From Phycisphaerales bacterium (lineage in GTDB: Bacteria > Planctomycetota > Phycisphaerae > Sedimentisphaerales > UBA12454): a stretch of DNA of 64,000 nt. A program made the position numbers and the translations under genes. Of the stretch, positions 42,760 through 50,733 are shown one piece after another (the stretch's first letter is position 1; every line of letters starts with the position of its first letter). The stretch spans positions 102,795-166,794 of the forward strand of contig PLMU01000013.1 of NCBI GenBank assembly GCA_003142595.1, in the 5' to 3' direction. The notes under the pieces are model-generated. The model was given only the letters and a program-made list of their open reading frames with translations. It searched no databases and was not told where the DNA came from.

Positions 42760-42832
42760 GGGCGATTAGCTCAGTTGGTAGAGCAGCTGATTCTTAATCA
42801 GCGGGTCACTGGTTCGAGTCCAGTATCGCCCA
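42760..42832 (+). tRNA. tRNA-Lys (CUU anticodon)
   Basis: GGGCGAT pairs with ATCGCCC (acceptor stem). The anticodon arm is GCTGA-TTCTTAA-TCAGC, which puts CTT at positions 34-36, so it reads AAG lysine codons. The T arm is CTGG-TTCGAGT-CCAG. CCA is not encoded. An integrative element occupies the 3' end: the last 21 bases of the tRNA fall within the 23-bp attL repeat, so the tRNA sequence is kept intact by the element's copy. Confidence 0.95.
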
Positions 42833-44137
42833 TTCTGGGTCTTTTTGCACCATTTCGCAAGCTCCTGCAAATTGCAGGTTATTGTCGCAATCATCAGGAC
42901 TTACAGTAATTGGTTCAGATGTTTCGTGCAGCCCTGTGCTATCTGATTCAGCGGCAGTATGTACCTGATTCTGTACCTCTTCCTGCACCTCTTTTTCGGC
43001 TTCATTCAACAAGGTCATTTTTGCGGCTTCCTGCATATCACTTTCGGTTACTTGAGCATAGTGTGTCATTGCAACCGCCGGGCTGTTTCCTATCCACTGG
43101 CAAACTGCTTTTACATTGCCGCCGGTCATTTTGAATAGCTCTGTTTCGCGTGTACTTCTTAGGTTCTGGAAAAGTTTCGGCCAAGATTCAAGACCGGCAC
43201 GTTTGATTATCCGGGCTAAGTGTGTCCGCAAATTGATTTCCGTAGCCCGGTGTTGCTCAATACAATAAACCGCCCCGTCTTTCGCTAAGTCAAAGGCTTC
43301 CTGAAACAGCGGCTTTAGCTCTGGAAACATCGGGACGATACGGATTCCGCTGCCAGCGTGATGTTCGGTCTTTGAGGCGTGTACTGTAAACCGTTCTTTC
43401 TCAAAGTCTATATCGACCCATTTAAGCCGCAAGACTTCGCTGGGACATCGCAGGCCGCCAAAGCGTGCCAAGCCAAAGATAAGCCGCCATTCCGCGTCCG
43501 GGCAAGCCTCAAGGACTTTTCGGGCTGTTTCAGCGGTTACATAGTAAAACCGGCTTTCGTTTGCCCGAATAGAAACAGATTGCCCCCTGAATGGATTCTT
43601 GCTGATATGCTCAGCGTCAACCGCTGAAGTGAAAAACTGCCGGGTAATCCCGATATGCCGCCGCAGCGTATTCTCTGAAAGTTTAACTGTGCTTTGCAGA
43701 TATACCCTAAAGTTTTTGGCGTGCTGGACAGTAACATCGCTAAGAGTATCATTTCGGAAAAACGCCCCCAGTTTGCTTTCGACATCTCGCCATTTTCGCA
43801 ATGTCGCGGCTTTTACGTCCGGGCGGCTTTCAATGTAATGCCTTACCCAAGCAGCAACCGTCCATCTCTTGCCGCCTCTGATTTCAACAAGCTGGAGTTT
43901 TTCTAATCGCTCCCGCATACTTTCAGGGATACCGGCAAGCCATTCCCGCGTTGCCAATTTCAATTCGCCTGTTTTGCAATTTGCTATCAGGTCATCAATA
44001 AATGCCTGTGCGGATTCGGCCTGCTTTTTTGAAACAGCCCCTAAGTGAATTTTAGGCCGCTGTTTGTTTTCGCCGGGACTAAGAAAAATAAAATACCGCG
44101 TCCCTGTTTCCGTTGTCTGTTTTCCTATGCTTGACAT
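42806..44137 (-). CDS. tyrosine recombinase (integrase) of the tRNA-Lys element, N-terminal part
   Basis: 443 residues, ATG overlapping the stop of the upstream HTH gene by one base. Catalytic residues: Arg230 (FGGLRCPSE), Lys256, Arg327 in FQNLRSTRETELF (the usual first His is Gln), and the nucleophile Tyr360 in MTHYAQVTESD; this pattern is the planctomycete integrase type. The last residues PEWAILDSNQ are encoded by attL and the tRNA gene, and the stop (42806-42808) lies in tRNA sequence. In a circle, the frame would continue for 69 codons into 50710-50501. All catalytic residues lie on this side, so the integrated form may still excise. Confidence 0.93.
   Translation of the reverse strand: MSSIGKQTTETGTRYFIFLSPGENKQRPKIHLGAVSKKQAESAQAFIDDLIANCKTGELKLATREWLAGIPESMRERLEKLQLVEIRGGKRWTVAAWVRHYIESRPDVKAATLRKWRDVESKLGAFFRNDTLSDVTVQHAKNFRVYLQSTVKLSENTLRRHIGITRQFFTSAVDAEHISKNPFRGQSVSIRANESRFYYVTAETARKVLEACPDAEWRLIFGLARFGGLRCPSEVLRLKWVDIDFEKERFTVHASKTEHHAGSGIRIVPMFPELKPLFQEAFDLAKDGAVYCIEQHRATEINLRTHLARIIKRAGLESWPKLFQNLRSTRETELFKMTGGNVKAVCQWIGNSPAVAMTHYAQVTESDMQEAAKMTLLNEAEKEVQEEVQNQVHTAAESDSTGLHETSEPITVSPDDCDNNLQFAGACEMVQKDPEWAILDSNQ
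42812..42834. repeat. attL core of the integrative element
   Basis: 23-bp direct repeat identical to 50711-50733, made of the last 21 bases of tRNA-Lys plus TT. It marks the left junction. Confidence 0.93.
42960..42981. repeat. 22-bp repeat, left arm copy
   Basis: TGTACCTGATTCTGTACCTCTT, identical at 50613-50634. The sequence contains TGTACC twice. In the circular form the two copies would lie on either side of the attP core, in the same orientation. Confidence 0.8.
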
Positions 44138-44343
44138 TATTTCACCTGCTTTTTTGATTTGGTTTTTTTGGCTGTAAGTTCAAGCCCTAAGTATTTACAA
44201 AGAATATCCAGCGTTTTAACGCTTGCTGTTCCGCCGTGGAAAATTCTATGCAGGACGGCTTCATTTATGCCGGTATCCTGCCATATTTGATAGCGGGTTT
44301 TGCCTGATTGTTCCATCGCTCTAAGTATATTTTTCATTATCAT
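44137..44343 (-). CDS. small Xre/Cro-type HTH regulator
   Basis: 68 residues, one-base overlap with the integrase start. TRYQIWQDTGINEAVLHRIF is a helix-turn-helix, followed by VKTLDILCKYLGLELT, the final helix of the fold, and a lysine-rich tail. It likely represses the integrase operon. An inverted repeat TTACTTT...AAAGTAA lies just upstream (44361-44383). Confidence 0.75.
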   Translation of the reverse strand: MIMKNILRAMEQSGKTRYQIWQDTGINEAVLHRIFHGGTASVKTLDILCKYLGLELTAKKTKSKKQVK

Positions 44344-44537: not shown

Positions 44538-44720
44538 AACGTTGTTATGCGCTAACATAGCTTCAAAATAGGTAATTTTGAAACATAACTATTTTATTTA
44601 TAAAGAGCTTATCCAAAAAATACCCTGAAAAGCTATGTTGTTCCGCTAACATAGCTTTGATTATCTAAATTAACGCTATGTTGCTCCGTAACAGTTGAGC
44701 TATGTTGTTCCGTAACAGTA
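44538..44720. repeat. cluster of GCTATGTTG(T/C)TCCG repeats at the 3' end of the wHTH gene
   Basis: Copies begin at 44633, 44676 and 44700, with a related complement near 44545-44563 (GCTAACATAGC). The 44633 copy is half of a 10-bp hairpin (44631-44640/44649-44658) that covers the stop codon of the wHTH gene. The copies at 44676 and 44700 are 24 bases apart and encode the protein repeat VTEQHSST/VTEQHSVN. Confidence 0.55.
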
Positions 44721-45172
44721 GTCTTTTTCTCTTTACAACAGTTTCGGCCATATTGATTGCCTTTTTGAAAACCTCTATTTACTGATTTTGGTCTGGGTTT
44801 CGGCTGCTCATAGTCCGGCGTGTCATAGTTTCTCCAACGGTTACTTATGCTGTAGAGGCTCTTGACTTTGTATATTCCTTGTCCGCTTGCTGCAATATCA
44901 ATAAAACCTTTGTCGATAAGGTCATCTATCGCCGTGCCAAATTTATCGCGAGAGATTCCATACTTATTTTGGGCTTCCAAGTAAGTAAATTCAATCTGTC
45001 CGTTATTTTTTATAATCCAATTTTCTTTCCCTTTTCGGCCTATCTGTTCGCATTGCCGTTTTGTAAAGAAAAAAGACAAAACCTTGTGAGTGGCAGCGGT
45101 CTTTAATGCCAGAAAAGCCTTTGATTCTATCAAAGCCCTCTCAAACCAGATAATTTTGCCTTTACCTGCCAT
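44633..45172 (-). CDS. winged-helix protein of the element, function unknown
   Basis: 179 residues. FERALIESKAFLALKTAATH at the start, then FTYLEAQNKYGISRDKFGTAIDDLIDKG (winged-helix recognition helix), and a Lys- and Gln-rich C-terminal tail ending in the two-fold repeat VTEQHSS/VTEQHSV. Proteins like this in planctomycete elements are DNA-binding and may act in replication or in control of the element, but no replication initiator domain is recognised. It begins three bases after the next cysteine-rich gene's stop. Confidence 0.55.
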   Translation of the reverse strand: MAGKGKIIWFERALIESKAFLALKTAATHKVLSFFFTKRQCEQIGRKGKENWIIKNNGQIEFTYLEAQNKYGISRDKFGTAIDDLIDKGFIDIAASGQGIYKVKSLYSISNRWRNYDTPDYEQPKPRPKSVNRGFQKGNQYGRNCCKEKKTTVTEQHSSTVTEQHSVNLDNQSYVSGTT

Positions 45173-45175
45173 ACC

Positions 45176-45460
45176 CTATCCGATGTACCCTTGCTCTGAA
45201 TTTTTTGATTCTACAGCGGAAAAAGCCTCATTATGGCCGTCCTGTAAGATTTCCTGATACGGTCTAATGGCATATAGCGGACAGGCTTTGGCTGTGCAAA
45301 GTGTTATCTCTTTCCGCTGCCAGCCGGTACATTCAAGGCATTGAGCATTTACAGCGGCTCTTAGACTTTTGCCCTGTACAGCTTTTTTGTAAATCCCTTT
45401 ATATGCCTTTGGTATTTGTGAAAGCCGCTGATTAATTTTTTGTATCGGGTCATTACTCAT
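45176..45460 (-). CDS. small cysteine-motif protein of the element
   Basis: 94 residues. AAVNAQCLECTGWQRKEITL and CTAKACPLYAIRPYQ contain four cysteines in two pairs, which probably form a single zinc site. I recall this type from Planctomycetes mobile elements, without a function. Its start is three bases after the stop of the Xis-like gene. Confidence 0.5.
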   Translation of the reverse strand: MSNDPIQKINQRLSQIPKAYKGIYKKAVQGKSLRAAVNAQCLECTGWQRKEITLCTAKACPLYAIRPYQEILQDGHNEAFSAVESKNSEQGYIG

Positions 45461-45463
45461 AAT

Positions 45464-45661
45464 TCATAGCCCCTCATTTTTTGCTTTAGTAATAAAGCCG
45501 TCCAAGTCGTTTAAATCATACCGCACGGCGCGGCCTATCCTGACGGCTGGTAGTTTTTTTGTTTTGGTAAGCTCAAAAAGATTTCTTTCGCAAATAGCCA
45601 GATACTTTGCTGCATCGCTTACAGATAAAAGCCGGGTGATTGTGCTGCTTTCGTTTGCCAT
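45464..45661 (-). CDS. excisionase-like HTH protein
   Basis: About 65 residues from the ATG at 45661, after a GGGGG ribosome-binding site; a longer frame reaching 45778 overlaps the preceding small gene and is not used. RLLSVSDAAKYLAICERNLF is a MerR-type recognition helix, and RIGRAVRYDLNDLDGFI is the wing of the excisionase fold. It is likely Xis or a transcription regulator of the element. Its start codon overlaps the stop of the 50-residue gene upstream (TAATG). Confidence 0.75.
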   Translation of the reverse strand: MANESSTITRLLSVSDAAKYLAICERNLFELTKTKKLPAVRIGRAVRYDLNDLDGFITKAKNEGL

Positions 45662-45813
45662 TAAAACCCCCGTCTGCAATAACTGATACGAATACCAAGC
45701 TCTAATAATTTTTTTCTCGCAAGTTTGATTCTTAGTTTGTCTTTTCTTTTTTTTGCCGCTTCCAAAACGGTAAACCACACAATCGGACAGTCTGTAAATT
45801 TCTTTTTTATCAT
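45661..45813 (-). CDS. 50-residue protein coupled to the excisionase-like gene
   Basis: Start ATG at 45813 (MIKKKFTDCPIVWFTVLEAAK). It is basic, with a CPIVWF motif followed by an amphipathic helix rich in Lys and Arg. The one-base overlap with the Xis-like start supports translation. Similar small genes next to Xis occur in planctomycete elements as I recall; no function is known to me. Confidence 0.45.
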   Translation of the reverse strand: MIKKKFTDCPIVWFTVLEAAKKRKDKLRIKLARKKLLELGIRISYCRRGF

Positions 45814-46767: not shown

Positions 46768-49647
46768 TCATTTCTGCTGATACCTTCCTTCAACGATTTC
46801 GATTTCTTTGGCGGTAAGGTCGTAGAGGTCGTAAACGAGCTTGTCGATTTGGGCGTCGGTGGTATCGATTTGCCGCTGGAATTTGGTTTTTTCATCGGGA
46901 ACTTTTGCGGCATTTAATTTTTTGTGCAAATCCAGTATTTGCTCTACAAACGAAATCATTTTGTCGTGCTTGGCCTTATCACTACGGATAGAAAAGTTAA
47001 TGCGCAATATTGGCAACTGTTTGAGGTATGTGCCTTTAATTTTTGGGAACGTCCGTCTTTGGTCATAGAAATGGTCTAACCAAAAAATGTGCATAAACTT
47101 AGAATTAAGAATGCCAAGTACATATCGTGGGTCAGGTTCCGTTGAGTGAAGATTTACCATGAACATTGTGTTAAGGCAATGCCATCCAATTTGGTCAATA
47201 GCAAAATCAGGATATCGGCCAATTTGTCTTGTAACAAGTTTATTTTTCCCGTCGTGTTTGCTTTTTTCCCAACAGCCCCCACAACGAGCTATCTCGTCAT
47301 TCAGACAGGCGAGATTACCCCAAGCCAAGGAATAGCGATTTACATCACGTCCTGTATAGCAGGGGCGATGGCTTGCTGGAATTGCACGTACACTTGATAC
47401 AGAGATTACATCCTTAACAAACTTTTTCCTATCGCGAAGTTGCTTTCCAAAATTTACATCGGCAATTTCACCTAATACCCAACTTTTGCCCGCAATTCTT
47501 TTCCAGAGATTGGTATATGTCTTTTCGCTAGTCCCAGTGAAAAGAACATGTTCATCTGCAAGAACTCTATCCGGGGAGACTTTGCTAATGCTTGTTTGAC
47601 ATAATTGACCGGTATCAATTTTAGCGTGGGCTATCTCGAAGTCTTTACTGGTGGGTTTACCAGGGCTAATGACAAAGATTGCATTATCTACGCTGATTCC
47701 TTGGAAAACTCCACCATCAATGACAAGTAGTTGCTGGATGTTAGACCGTTCAAGCATCAGACGACGCAATTTATCAAGATGATTATTTGTCAGGATATTT
47801 GCAGGTATAATCATTGAGCAACGTCCTCCAGACTTGCTCACTCTGATTATTTGCTCAATAAAGAGGTGGTATGTGTCAATCTTGTGGGAGGCAGAGATAA
47901 ATTTGGAACGAAAATATTCCAATTGACGGTCATCTCGAAATTCATCTTGGAGCAATACATAAGGAGGATTCCCAATTATAACGTCAAATCCGCCTTGTTT
48001 GAAAATTTCAACAAATTCTTTCTGCCAGTCGAAGGCGTTAATTTTATATTTTTCCTCCTCACCGAAAAGACTAAGCTGCTGGTTCTGGTAAAAATCCGGC
48101 GCGATAAGCGAATTGCCGCATTTGATATTTTCTGCCAAGTCCGGCAATGCCCGCTCATGGAACAATTTTAAGGTCTGCCCTAATGTCTCCTGCGTCTCAT
48201 CCGCTAAGACTTTCAGGAGCAAACTTAATTTCGTTACCTCGACGGCCTGTGAGTCGATGTCCACGCCGTAAATATTGCTAAGCAGAATCCGCTTTTTCTC
48301 TGCAATGGTCAAAAACCATTGTCCGCCCTTACCCTGATAAATCTGCTTTGTGTATTTGGCGGGGTCGTTTTCGACATACCAATCACGATGATAATCCAAC
48401 AGGTATGTATATGCGCCAAGCAAAAATGAACCGCTGCCGCAGGCGGGGTCAAGAATCTTTAGTTTAGAAATCTGCTTTGGTGTCTTGTTTTCGCAGAGTT
48501 TGCCTACGGTATTTTTCACGATGTATTTGACGATATATTCCGGTGTGTAATAAACGCCGCCCGCCTTTTTGACTTCCGGCTTTTCCTCGACCTTTGCCTG
48601 GTGCGATTCCGTCAGGCGGATTACCTTGCCCAAAAACTGCTCATAAACATTGCCGAGTATTTCGGCAGGCATAACGGAAAAAACATAAGGACTGTGTGGG
48701 TAATAAAGCGATTTGATTATCTGCACAAGCGGCTTATCGTCAATATCAAGATTTGGCGTCAGGTCATCAGGCGGCTCAGACCTGCCTTTCTCCGACATAA
48801 AATGAAAAAGACCCGAATTGTATTTCTCATCAGCCCTCTGAAAAACCTGATAAAGCTTCTTGTATATCTTAGCGTTATCCGTCAGATTAGAAAGCTGTTT
48901 CTCTGGTTCAATCCCGTTGTCTTCGCACATCCGCAAAAAGAGGATTCTATCGATTGTCAACTGAACCGAATAATTTAACTGGCGATTAGTCAGCGAATCA
49001 TTCCTAAGAGCGATATTCTTGGCGAGCATTTCTCGCCACGATTCGATTTCAGAAAGGAATTCTTTGTCAACGGTGGTTGTGCCTCGTTTGCCTTTTGTTG
49101 TTACGGCGTACTTATCAAAAGAGCCTTTGAGAATCGCGTCCCTGCTGAATATATCTGCGATTTGGTCCCATTTATCGGCATAATCTTTGTAGTTGAAAAA
49201 CAGTATTCTTGCCGTTGAGGGCTTATCGTTTACGTTTGGTCTAATTCGGCAGTCATAAACGGCGAATTCCTCAAAGTCGGTGAGAATTGACAGAGGTAAT
49301 TTTGCGCTCCATGCGTAACGGCGAAGCTGGTAAGCGGGATGGATGTCGTTTTTAATATCTACGGAAGGCTTTTTGGCTTCGACGAAAAATTTACGAGTAC
49401 CACCTATGCGGAAACTGTAATCTGGGGCTTTTGTTGCGCTGCCGACTTTTATCGCGTCCTCGTGAATAACTTCTCTATAGGCCGGTGCGTAGGCTCTTTC
49501 GTTTGTTATATCCCATCCAAGGGCTTTGAAAAAAGGATTGAGAAATTCCTGCCGAAGCTGAGTTTCGTTGTAACTTCCATTTTTATAGGATTCAAGGTTG
49601 CTATCGAAGGCTTTAACAAGCTGGCGAATCGTTTCTGGAACGCCCAT
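46768..49647 (-). CDS. single-chain type II restriction-modification enzyme (Eco57I/MmeI-like)
   Basis: 959 residues from ATG 49647 (MGVPETIRQLVKAFDSNLES) with AGGA before it; a TTG at 49704 would add 19 residues. An N-terminal PD-(D/E)xK nuclease has Asp76 and Glu90-x-Lys92 (APDYSFRIGG, FFVEAKKP). The N6-adenine methyltransferase carries motif I DPACGSGSF (400-408) and NPPY (560-563). A C-terminal target-recognition region follows (YTGRDVNRYSLAWG, FPKIKGTYLKQLP). It would cut and methylate the same asymmetric site. This is the cargo gene most likely to benefit the host by defence against phages. Confidence 0.9.
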   Translation of the reverse strand: MGVPETIRQLVKAFDSNLESYKNGSYNETQLRQEFLNPFFKALGWDITNERAYAPAYREVIHEDAIKVGSATKAPDYSFRIGGTRKFFVEAKKPSVDIKNDIHPAYQLRRYAWSAKLPLSILTDFEEFAVYDCRIRPNVNDKPSTARILFFNYKDYADKWDQIADIFSRDAILKGSFDKYAVTTKGKRGTTTVDKEFLSEIESWREMLAKNIALRNDSLTNRQLNYSVQLTIDRILFLRMCEDNGIEPEKQLSNLTDNAKIYKKLYQVFQRADEKYNSGLFHFMSEKGRSEPPDDLTPNLDIDDKPLVQIIKSLYYPHSPYVFSVMPAEILGNVYEQFLGKVIRLTESHQAKVEEKPEVKKAGGVYYTPEYIVKYIVKNTVGKLCENKTPKQISKLKILDPACGSGSFLLGAYTYLLDYHRDWYVENDPAKYTKQIYQGKGGQWFLTIAEKKRILLSNIYGVDIDSQAVEVTKLSLLLKVLADETQETLGQTLKLFHERALPDLAENIKCGNSLIAPDFYQNQQLSLFGEEEKYKINAFDWQKEFVEIFKQGGFDVIIGNPPYVLLQDEFRDDRQLEYFRSKFISASHKIDTYHLFIEQIIRVSKSGGRCSMIIPANILTNNHLDKLRRLMLERSNIQQLLVIDGGVFQGISVDNAIFVISPGKPTSKDFEIAHAKIDTGQLCQTSISKVSPDRVLADEHVLFTGTSEKTYTNLWKRIAGKSWVLGEIADVNFGKQLRDRKKFVKDVISVSSVRAIPASHRPCYTGRDVNRYSLAWGNLACLNDEIARCGGCWEKSKHDGKNKLVTRQIGRYPDFAIDQIGWHCLNTMFMVNLHSTEPDPRYVLGILNSKFMHIFWLDHFYDQRRTFPKIKGTYLKQLPILRINFSIRSDKAKHDKMISFVEQILDLHKKLNAAKVPDEKTKFQRQIDTTDAQIDKLVYDLYDLTAKEIEIVEGRYQQK

Positions 49648-49760
49648 AAACTGTTTTTCCTTTTGTGTTTTTGTTACCTTCCTTTGGCTAAAAACCTTCG
49701 TCAAATCTTACCACCTAACCCCTTCCAAAGCAACTTAACAAATTTCTCAGGTTATGTAAT

Positions 49761-50134
49761 TTGTAGCTTTTTGTAGCCTCTAAAATGCAACTTTTTGCAA
49801 CCAGTTGTAGGTTGAAACCTGAAAATTTTTGCCGCTTTTGAAAGTTGCAAAATGTCAGGTTTTGTCAGGAGTGAGCAGACTTAGCAATATCGCCTTTTAT
49901 CGCTCCCCGCTCGTTTCTGAACCTTAACATTTCTTAACATTTTAATGTTAACTTTTGTTAACAGCTTCGCCGGTTCTTATCCCTTTTTAGGGACTGGAGA
50001 AATAACGAAAAATGTTAGGTTTTGTTAGGGGTTCAAAAGTATATTCCGGTTTCAAGTTTTATCAAGTTCAAAAATGCAAGGTTTTAAAGGTTTTTTCTCT
50101 GCAAAATCGCTGTAAACCTCAACATTTCTCAACA
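49761..50134. repeat. eight paired repeats with exact 10-bp period, upstream of the restriction-modification gene
   Basis: Each pair is a short word repeated ten bases later: TTGTAGC (49761/49771), TGCAAC (49786/49796), TGTCAGG (49853/49863), CTTAACATTT (49923/49933), TGTTAAC (49946/49956), TGTTAGG (50013/50023), TCAAGTT (50052/50062), CTCAACA (50118/50128). The words differ between pairs but agree within each pair, and in most the gap between words is T-rich. A ninth, weaker pair (AAGGTTTT at 50078 and 50087) has a 9-bp period. The 10-bp period places both words on the same face of the helix. The stretch 49648-50192 has no protein-coding gene. Confidence 0.7.
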
Positions 50135-50192
50135 GGTATAGAGGTAACAAAAAGACACATTTTGAGCCTTTTTAAGTGGCGACATTCAGCGG

Positions 50193-50498
50193 TTAGCCAT
50201 ATCCCCGCCTTGCCCAAAATTCTTTCCTTTTTCGCCGTCTTTCAGCCCAGCCATAAACCCAGTCTGGACAGCGTTTGACTCTGATATGGTTTTCCCTGCT
50301 CCAGCGTTGTAAAGTCCGGCGTTGTACTTTTAAAATCCTTGCTGTTGCTCTTATGCCATATTCAGCTATGAGTTCAAAGGCGTATTCTTTTTGCTCTTGG
50401 CTGTACTGCCCGCCATTGCCATAGCTAAGAAATTCAAACCGCTTATTCTCATACTCTTCATAAATGAACAATCGAATAGCGATGTTCCTTGCCTGCAT
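50193..50498 (-). CDS. 101-residue HTH protein of the element
   Basis: The start is two bases after the stop of the displaced integrase 3' end, so in the circular form this gene would follow the integrase directly. YSQEQKEYAFELIAEYGIRA and TARILKVQRRTLQRWSRENH form a helix-turn-helix similar to those of transposase subunits and terminase-like regulators; the C-terminus is basic (RRKRKEFWARRGYG). It lies immediately upstream of the eight paired repeats, which are candidates for its binding sites. Confidence 0.6.
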   Translation of the reverse strand: MQARNIAIRLFIYEEYENKRFEFLSYGNGGQYSQEQKEYAFELIAEYGIRATARILKVQRRTLQRWSRENHIRVKRCPDWVYGWAERRRKRKEFWARRGYG

Positions 50499-50612
50499 AG
50501 TTATTTCCCTTTGCAGCTTTCGATTAAGGCTTTGATTTCCGCTTTGATAGATTCTGGCAGGCGTTCCCAGCTTTCGACAATGACCTGCAATTCGGGGTAA
50601 ATCGTCAAAATG

Positions 50613-50634
50613 TGTACCTGATTCTGTACCTCTT
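50613..50634. repeat. 22-bp repeat, right arm copy
   Basis: Identical to 42960-42981. It lies 76 bases from the attR core, while the other copy lies 125 bases from the attL core. Repeats on both sides of the core would fit arm-type integrase or excisionase sites. Confidence 0.8.
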
Positions 50635-50710
50635 GACTTTTTTGGCAGTCATCGGTTTTTGCTATAGGTTCTTTGTTGTCAATTGGTTGTGATTGTTTTG
50701 AAGATAAATT

Positions 50711-50733
50711 GTTCGAGTCCAGTATCGCCCATT
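50711..50733. repeat. attR core of the integrative element
   Basis: 23-bp direct repeat of 42812-42834; bases 50711-50731 match the 3' end of tRNA-Lys. Sequence right of 50733 is the original chromosomal flank of the tRNA gene. Confidence 0.93.

Follow-up and report, generated by a model that had tools for sequence, protein, structure and literature searches.

Results

Organization of the integrated element

The window analyzed here, a stretch of 64,000 nucleotides from a Phycisphaerales bacterium, carries an element of about 7.9 kb integrated in a tRNA-Lys gene. The repeat cluster described below lies inside this element, since the 3' end of the tRNA gene is found again on the far side of the cluster (Table 1). 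All recognized genes of the element are on the minus strand, in the order HTH_17 excisionase-like protein, Cys-rich protein of 94 residues, DnaD/O-like initiator candidate, XRE protein and integrase. In the excised circle, the integrase is followed by an integrase tail, the 101-residue HTH protein (HTH101), the cluster and the restriction-modification cargo. The initial annotation had located the cluster between an HTH gene and the restriction-modification gene, which agrees with this order. The integrase gene ends inside the att core (42806-42834), and in the circular form its frame seems to extend by about 60-70 codons; integration would therefore shorten the protein. The tail (50501-50733) recurs in relatives.

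With regard to the small HTH proteins, the only PDB match of the HTH_17 protein was RdfS, with an E-value of 0.47, which is not significant. The structural model of HTH101 is all-helical and without a wing (mean pLDDT 86). HTH101 gave neither a confident fold match nor a significant sequence match in the PDB, and no relatives were found in viral contigs.

The motif CTTTTTAAGTGGCGACA, located beside the 3' end of the HTH101 gene, has similar counterparts near the HTH101 3' end in the related elements L041, L090-L093, L095-L098, L101, L127, L129, L130 and L138. It is also present in a second such element, found on contig C16 of the same genome, where a zinc-ribbon gene with the same stop position replaces HTH101. 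The 13 matches to the motif in viral contigs look like chance, and none comes with a pair cluster. In C16, putative arm-type pairs are present on both sides of att as well, at lag 11 (L003 2805 and about 10915); their words differ from those of the window, each integrase having its own. A lone TTGTTAGGatTTGTTAGG pair is found at L003:2772, within the C16 integrase gene near attL.

Table 1. Features of the integrated element and of the repeat cluster, in window coordinates
Feature	Position	Strand	Basis or remark
attL core, 3' end of tRNA-Lys(CTT) gene 42760-42832	42812..42834	+	tRNA 3' end
Tyrosine integrase	42806..44137	-	PF00589, PF13102
Putative integrase arm-type pair TGTACCTgattcTGTACCT, lag 12, attL side	42960..42978	+	repeat search
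Small Cro/C1-type HTH protein	44137..44343	-	PF13443
Three copies of a 21-nt repeat, 3' end of rep gene	44632..44719	+	repeat search
DnaD/O-like replication initiator candidate	44633..45172	-	phrog_186, phrog_678
94-aa Cys-rich protein, family marker	45176..45460	-	protein searches
HTH_17 excisionase-like protein	45464..45778	-	PF12728 (E=9e-10); phrog_66 excisionase
Eco57I-type restriction-modification cargo, next minus-strand gene after cluster	46768..49704	-	PF07669, PF12950
Pair 1, TTTGTAGC / TTTGTAGC	49760..49777	+	lag-10 run of 8
Pair 2, ATGCAAC / TTGCAAC	49785..49801	+	lag-10 run of 6
Pair 3, TGTCAGG / TGTCAGG	49853..49869	+	lag-10 run of 7; exact TGTNARSTTTTGTNARS match
Additional pair, ATATCGC / TTATCGC	49887..49903 (run at 49888)	+	lag-10 run of 6; absent from initial annotation
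Pair 4, CTTAACATTT twice (reverse complement TGTTAAG aaa TGTTAAG)	49923..49942	-	lag-10 run of 10
Pair 5, TGTTAAC / TGTTAAC	49946..49962	+	lag-10 run; alignment
Pair 6, TGTTAGG / TGTTAGG	50013..50029	+	lag-10 run, TGTNARSTTTTGTNARS scan; lost in C16 element
Pair 7, TTTCAAG / TATCAAG (TCAAGTT twice)	50050..50068	+	lag-10 run of 7
Decayed tenth pair, TGCAAGGtttTAAAGG (TGCAAGG ttt TAAAGG)	50075..50090	+	read from sequence
Pair 8, CTCAACA / CTCAACA	50118..50134	-	lag-10 run
Conserved boundary motif CTTTTTAAGTGGCGACA, beside HTH gene 3' end	50168..50184	+	conservation in relatives
HTH101, 101-aa HTH_17/HTH_28-like protein	50193..50498	-	profile matches, model
Integrase-tail reading frame, would extend Int in excised circle	50501..50711	-	read by eye from sequence
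Identical TGTACCTgattcTGTACCT lag-12 pair, attR side	50613..50631	+	repeat search
attR core, tRNA-Lys 3' end copy	50711..50733	+	sequence

A cluster of 7-bp words doubled one turn apart

The cluster consists of about ten doubled 7-bp words in a non-coding stretch, with a repeat step of 10 bp, that is one DNA turn. Positions 49740-50140 hold nine exact lag-10 runs of at least 6 bp, whereas every other lag from 4 to 30 gives 0-2. In 20,000 dinucleotide shuffles of the cluster region, lag-10 runs averaged about 0.1 and never exceeded 3, which refutes the chance expectation that the initial annotation had named as its test. Elsewhere in the window, beyond the element, lag 10 is not in excess (15 runs, against 8-22 at other lags). 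The eight pairs listed initially were all recovered, with every word and all seven start-to-start distances exact, and one further intact pair and a decayed tenth were added; the C16 counterpart of the latter is intact (TGTAAGG / TGTAAGG). Pair 5 aligns with the position of CCTTAACtttTCTTAAC in C16 and of CCTTAGCattTCTTAGC in L161.

Lag-10 identity spans the 7-bp word (7-9 of the nine sites at each position) and drops to background on either flank. The words vary between pairs, as had been noted, but the claim that nothing except the architecture is kept was too strong: most words also fit a loose consensus, TGYNARS, in either orientation, and the 3-bp spacer is A/T-rich. The suggested curvature is present in a modest form, the predicted 31-bp bend being 34.9 degrees against 27.9 +/- 3.4 in shuffles, about two standard deviations up; it is the highest among 80 chunks of the window, yet far under that of a phased A6 control (59-75). 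A terminator scan found none in the cluster, and promoter-like matches were at shuffle level.

Agreement between the two halves of a site

Agreement between halves was measured on 69 candidate sites in seven clusters, which were picked by the TGYNARS consensus without requiring identity. The two halves share 4.61 of 7 letters, compared with 3.51 when halves are re-dealt among sites (permutation z = 9.2, lag 10). No such excess was found at lags 8, 9, 11, 12 and 13, nor elsewhere in the window at lag 10. At the fourth and freest word position, the halves match in 40 of 65 sites, with 20 expected (count made before L162 was added).

Orthologous sites change in step, in a small number of events. 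The C16 orthologue of pair 8, GTCAACA / GTCAATA, has its first base altered in both halves relative to CTCAACA / CTCAACA, and the CTTAGCA/CTTAGCA site of L161 has CTTACCA/CTTAACA as its counterpart in L162. A G-to-C change in both halves between pair 5 and C16 is ambiguous, as the C16 site may derive from pair 4 via a 24-bp deletion. A genome-wide scan for exact TGTNARSTTTTGTNARS gave four matches, all within the two elements; a half-site PWM, run at a low threshold, lacked specificity across the genome.

Recurrence in related elements

The C16 element has the right half of the cluster in common with the window element. When relatives were sought with the 94-aa, HTH101 and zinc-ribbon proteins, five other genomes yielded clusters as well: L041, which belongs to the same genus, and L043, L091, L092 and L162, which belong to other genera of the order. 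The paired layout is seen in six other elements, seven including that of the window, with changed words and at a recurrent position, between the integrase-tail, HTH101 or zinc-ribbon genes and the neighbouring cargo. Lag-10 counts exceeded those of shuffles in all of them (0/3,000 for the window and five others, p = 0.003 for C16); the tested regions were chosen for their lag-10 runs, and these p-values express strength and not an unbiased survey. Repeats at 8245-8352 of L090 lie beyond a tRNA gene and were excluded from the counts. Many related elements with HTH101 and the CTTTTTAAGTGGCGACA motif have no cluster, and a DNA search of 59 relatives yielded no more than the second element of this genome and a marginal match of 49 bp.

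Inverted lag-10 pairs (TTTTGTATG, TTGGGAACAG) were observed in other elements, at L062 3334-3435 and L063 9505-9571, where they adjoin the 94-aa gene or lie upstream of it; they are possible autoregulatory operators.

Discussion

The paired 10-bp cluster is a real, specific and recurrent feature. Among the processes that could generate it, slippage would produce 10-bp tandem duplications, trimmed later and of little function. This would account for the same word occurring in both halves, and the L162 site and the window pair at 50075 resemble decaying sites. Such duplications nevertheless predict lag-10 runs of at least 10, a length that only one of the nine window pairs reaches. Because identity ends at the 7-bp word and does not cover the 10-bp unit, the repeated slippage that had been put forward is, in its pure form, unlikely for the window cluster. 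Moreover, the period never departs from 10, and six other elements show the architecture at the same type of junction; we consider a mutational product distinctly unlikely. Insertion footprints, in which 7-bp duplications would surround a 3-bp remnant, are unlikely given the constant period, the shared consensus and the T-rich spacer. Pairing of oppositely oriented words in RNA or single-stranded DNA was also examined, as the region folds more strongly than shuffles on either strand (z = -4.8). However, complementary words are expected to fold strongly, and the fold is equal on both strands; the main predicted helix, between pairs 4 and 6, is missing from C16, which has lost pair 6, and Rfam gave no match. 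A structural role is very unlikely.

Arrays serving replication or partition are known, both as iterons of plasmids and satellites, such as the P4 decamers, and as ParR/parC centromeres. A cluster of short tandem repeats on a mobile element with a DnaD/O-like initiator resembles them and could belong to the excised circle. Iterons repeat one word throughout, whereas the half-sites of the window cluster vary from pair to pair, and no ParM, ParA or ribbon-helix-helix gene was recognized among the element proteins scanned. Both elements carry other repeats in and just past the 3' end of the rep gene (21 nt in the window, 27 nt at the same place in C16), and those of the window are more likely to be the replication iterons. 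Because of these separate repeats of different sequence, the replication region considered initially has become less likely, and we regard an iteron or centromere-like array as unlikely. Tyrosine integrase arm-type sites are often tandem direct repeats near attP. Arm-type repeats flank the att core at short distance, but the cluster lies 580-950 bp away from it; the TGTACCTgattcTGTACCT lag-12 pair, found on both sides at about 80-130 bp, would fit this role better, and arm-type sites in the cluster are extremely unlikely. The boxes of OmpR/PhoB-family response regulators, which bind as tandem dimers, are closer in appearance. The known sites of this family are without exception direct repeats, of 7 bp in the case of PhoP (PMC4832192). 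TGTCAGGtttTGTCAGG looks like such a box, and the host encodes one OmpR/PhoB-type protein (C11:7767-7985), although no such gene is on the element. In contrast to the PhoP box, with its single consensus word, 11-bp period and 4-bp spacer, the cluster exhibits variable words, a period of 10 and a 3-bp spacer, which for PhoP lowers affinity about 20-fold. Exact TGTNARSTTTTGTNARS matches are confined to the two elements, unlike a host regulon, and control by the host regulator is unlikely.

The cluster probably serves as a landing strip on which a DNA-binding protein assembles head-to-tail. Each of the approximately ten sites would offer two matching 7-bp half-sites, one turn (10 bp) apart, with a 3-bp A/T-rich spacer. 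Such an anatomy, in which several sites with loose words and A/T-rich spacers follow one another and each has its half-sites one turn apart, would fit head-to-tail binding by a small HTH protein. The initial annotation had proposed that a protein recognizes spacing and A-tracts on one face of the helix. This is the best-supported reading, because seven elements have the architecture but differ in their words, with the addition that a loose consensus is kept too. It also resembles known systems. BldC occupies degenerate direct repeats in a head-to-tail manner and relies on indirect readout (PMC5859096), and RdfS assembles into head-to-tail filaments that follow no consensus motif (PMC11963761). 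The BldC family and wHTH recombination directionality factors such as RdfS and lambda Xis share small HTH proteins and indirect A/T readout, and the window cluster has the corresponding direct repeats about one turn apart (at lag 10 only) and degenerate, A/T-rich recognition (TGYNARS, A/T-rich spacer and varied words). The element also encodes an HTH_17 excisionase-like protein, a candidate counterpart of RdfS and Xis. In contrast, BldC repeats are 9 bp long and read AATTXXXX(C), whereas the cluster has a 10-bp period and discrete pairs of matched words as its candidate sites.

From the observed pairs, period, consensus, half agreement, location and recurrence, we infer binding, a binder and a function. 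In its full form, a control array of tandem half-sites bound by a small HTH protein, with the HTH_17 excisionase-like protein (45464-45778) as the likeliest candidate, is a tentative proposal that we rate at somewhat under even. HTH101 and the host OmpR/PhoB-type regulator are the alternative binders. All four pair-bearing elements with visible core genes have an HTH_17 gene. No HTH101 was seen in the pair-bearing C16, L043 and L162, and both genes also occur in elements without pair clusters. Bound at this junction, where the integrase/HTH module meets the cargo, the protein would set the expression of the cargo or organize the excised circle, and the array may in this way regulate cargo or excision.

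Tandem direct-repeat operator arrays are already known, and what sets the window cluster apart is the covariation of its half-sites. Agreement between halves goes far beyond the loose consensus, and additive binding to that consensus gives no explanation for matching variants. A reasonable guess is that local copying homogenizes the halves while selection acts on spacing. A stronger version, in which the maintained feature is the identity of the half-words and not any particular word, either because a protein assembly needs matching halves to bind or because 7-bp words one turn apart are repeatedly homogenized by copying, is quite doubtful.

If confirmed, the cluster would represent a recognizable control region for small integrative elements of planctomycetes. 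It would also provide a naturally varied set of head-to-tail sites, constant in spacing and with covarying words, with which it would become testable whether such proteins read spacing and shape over sequence, and why the halves coevolve.
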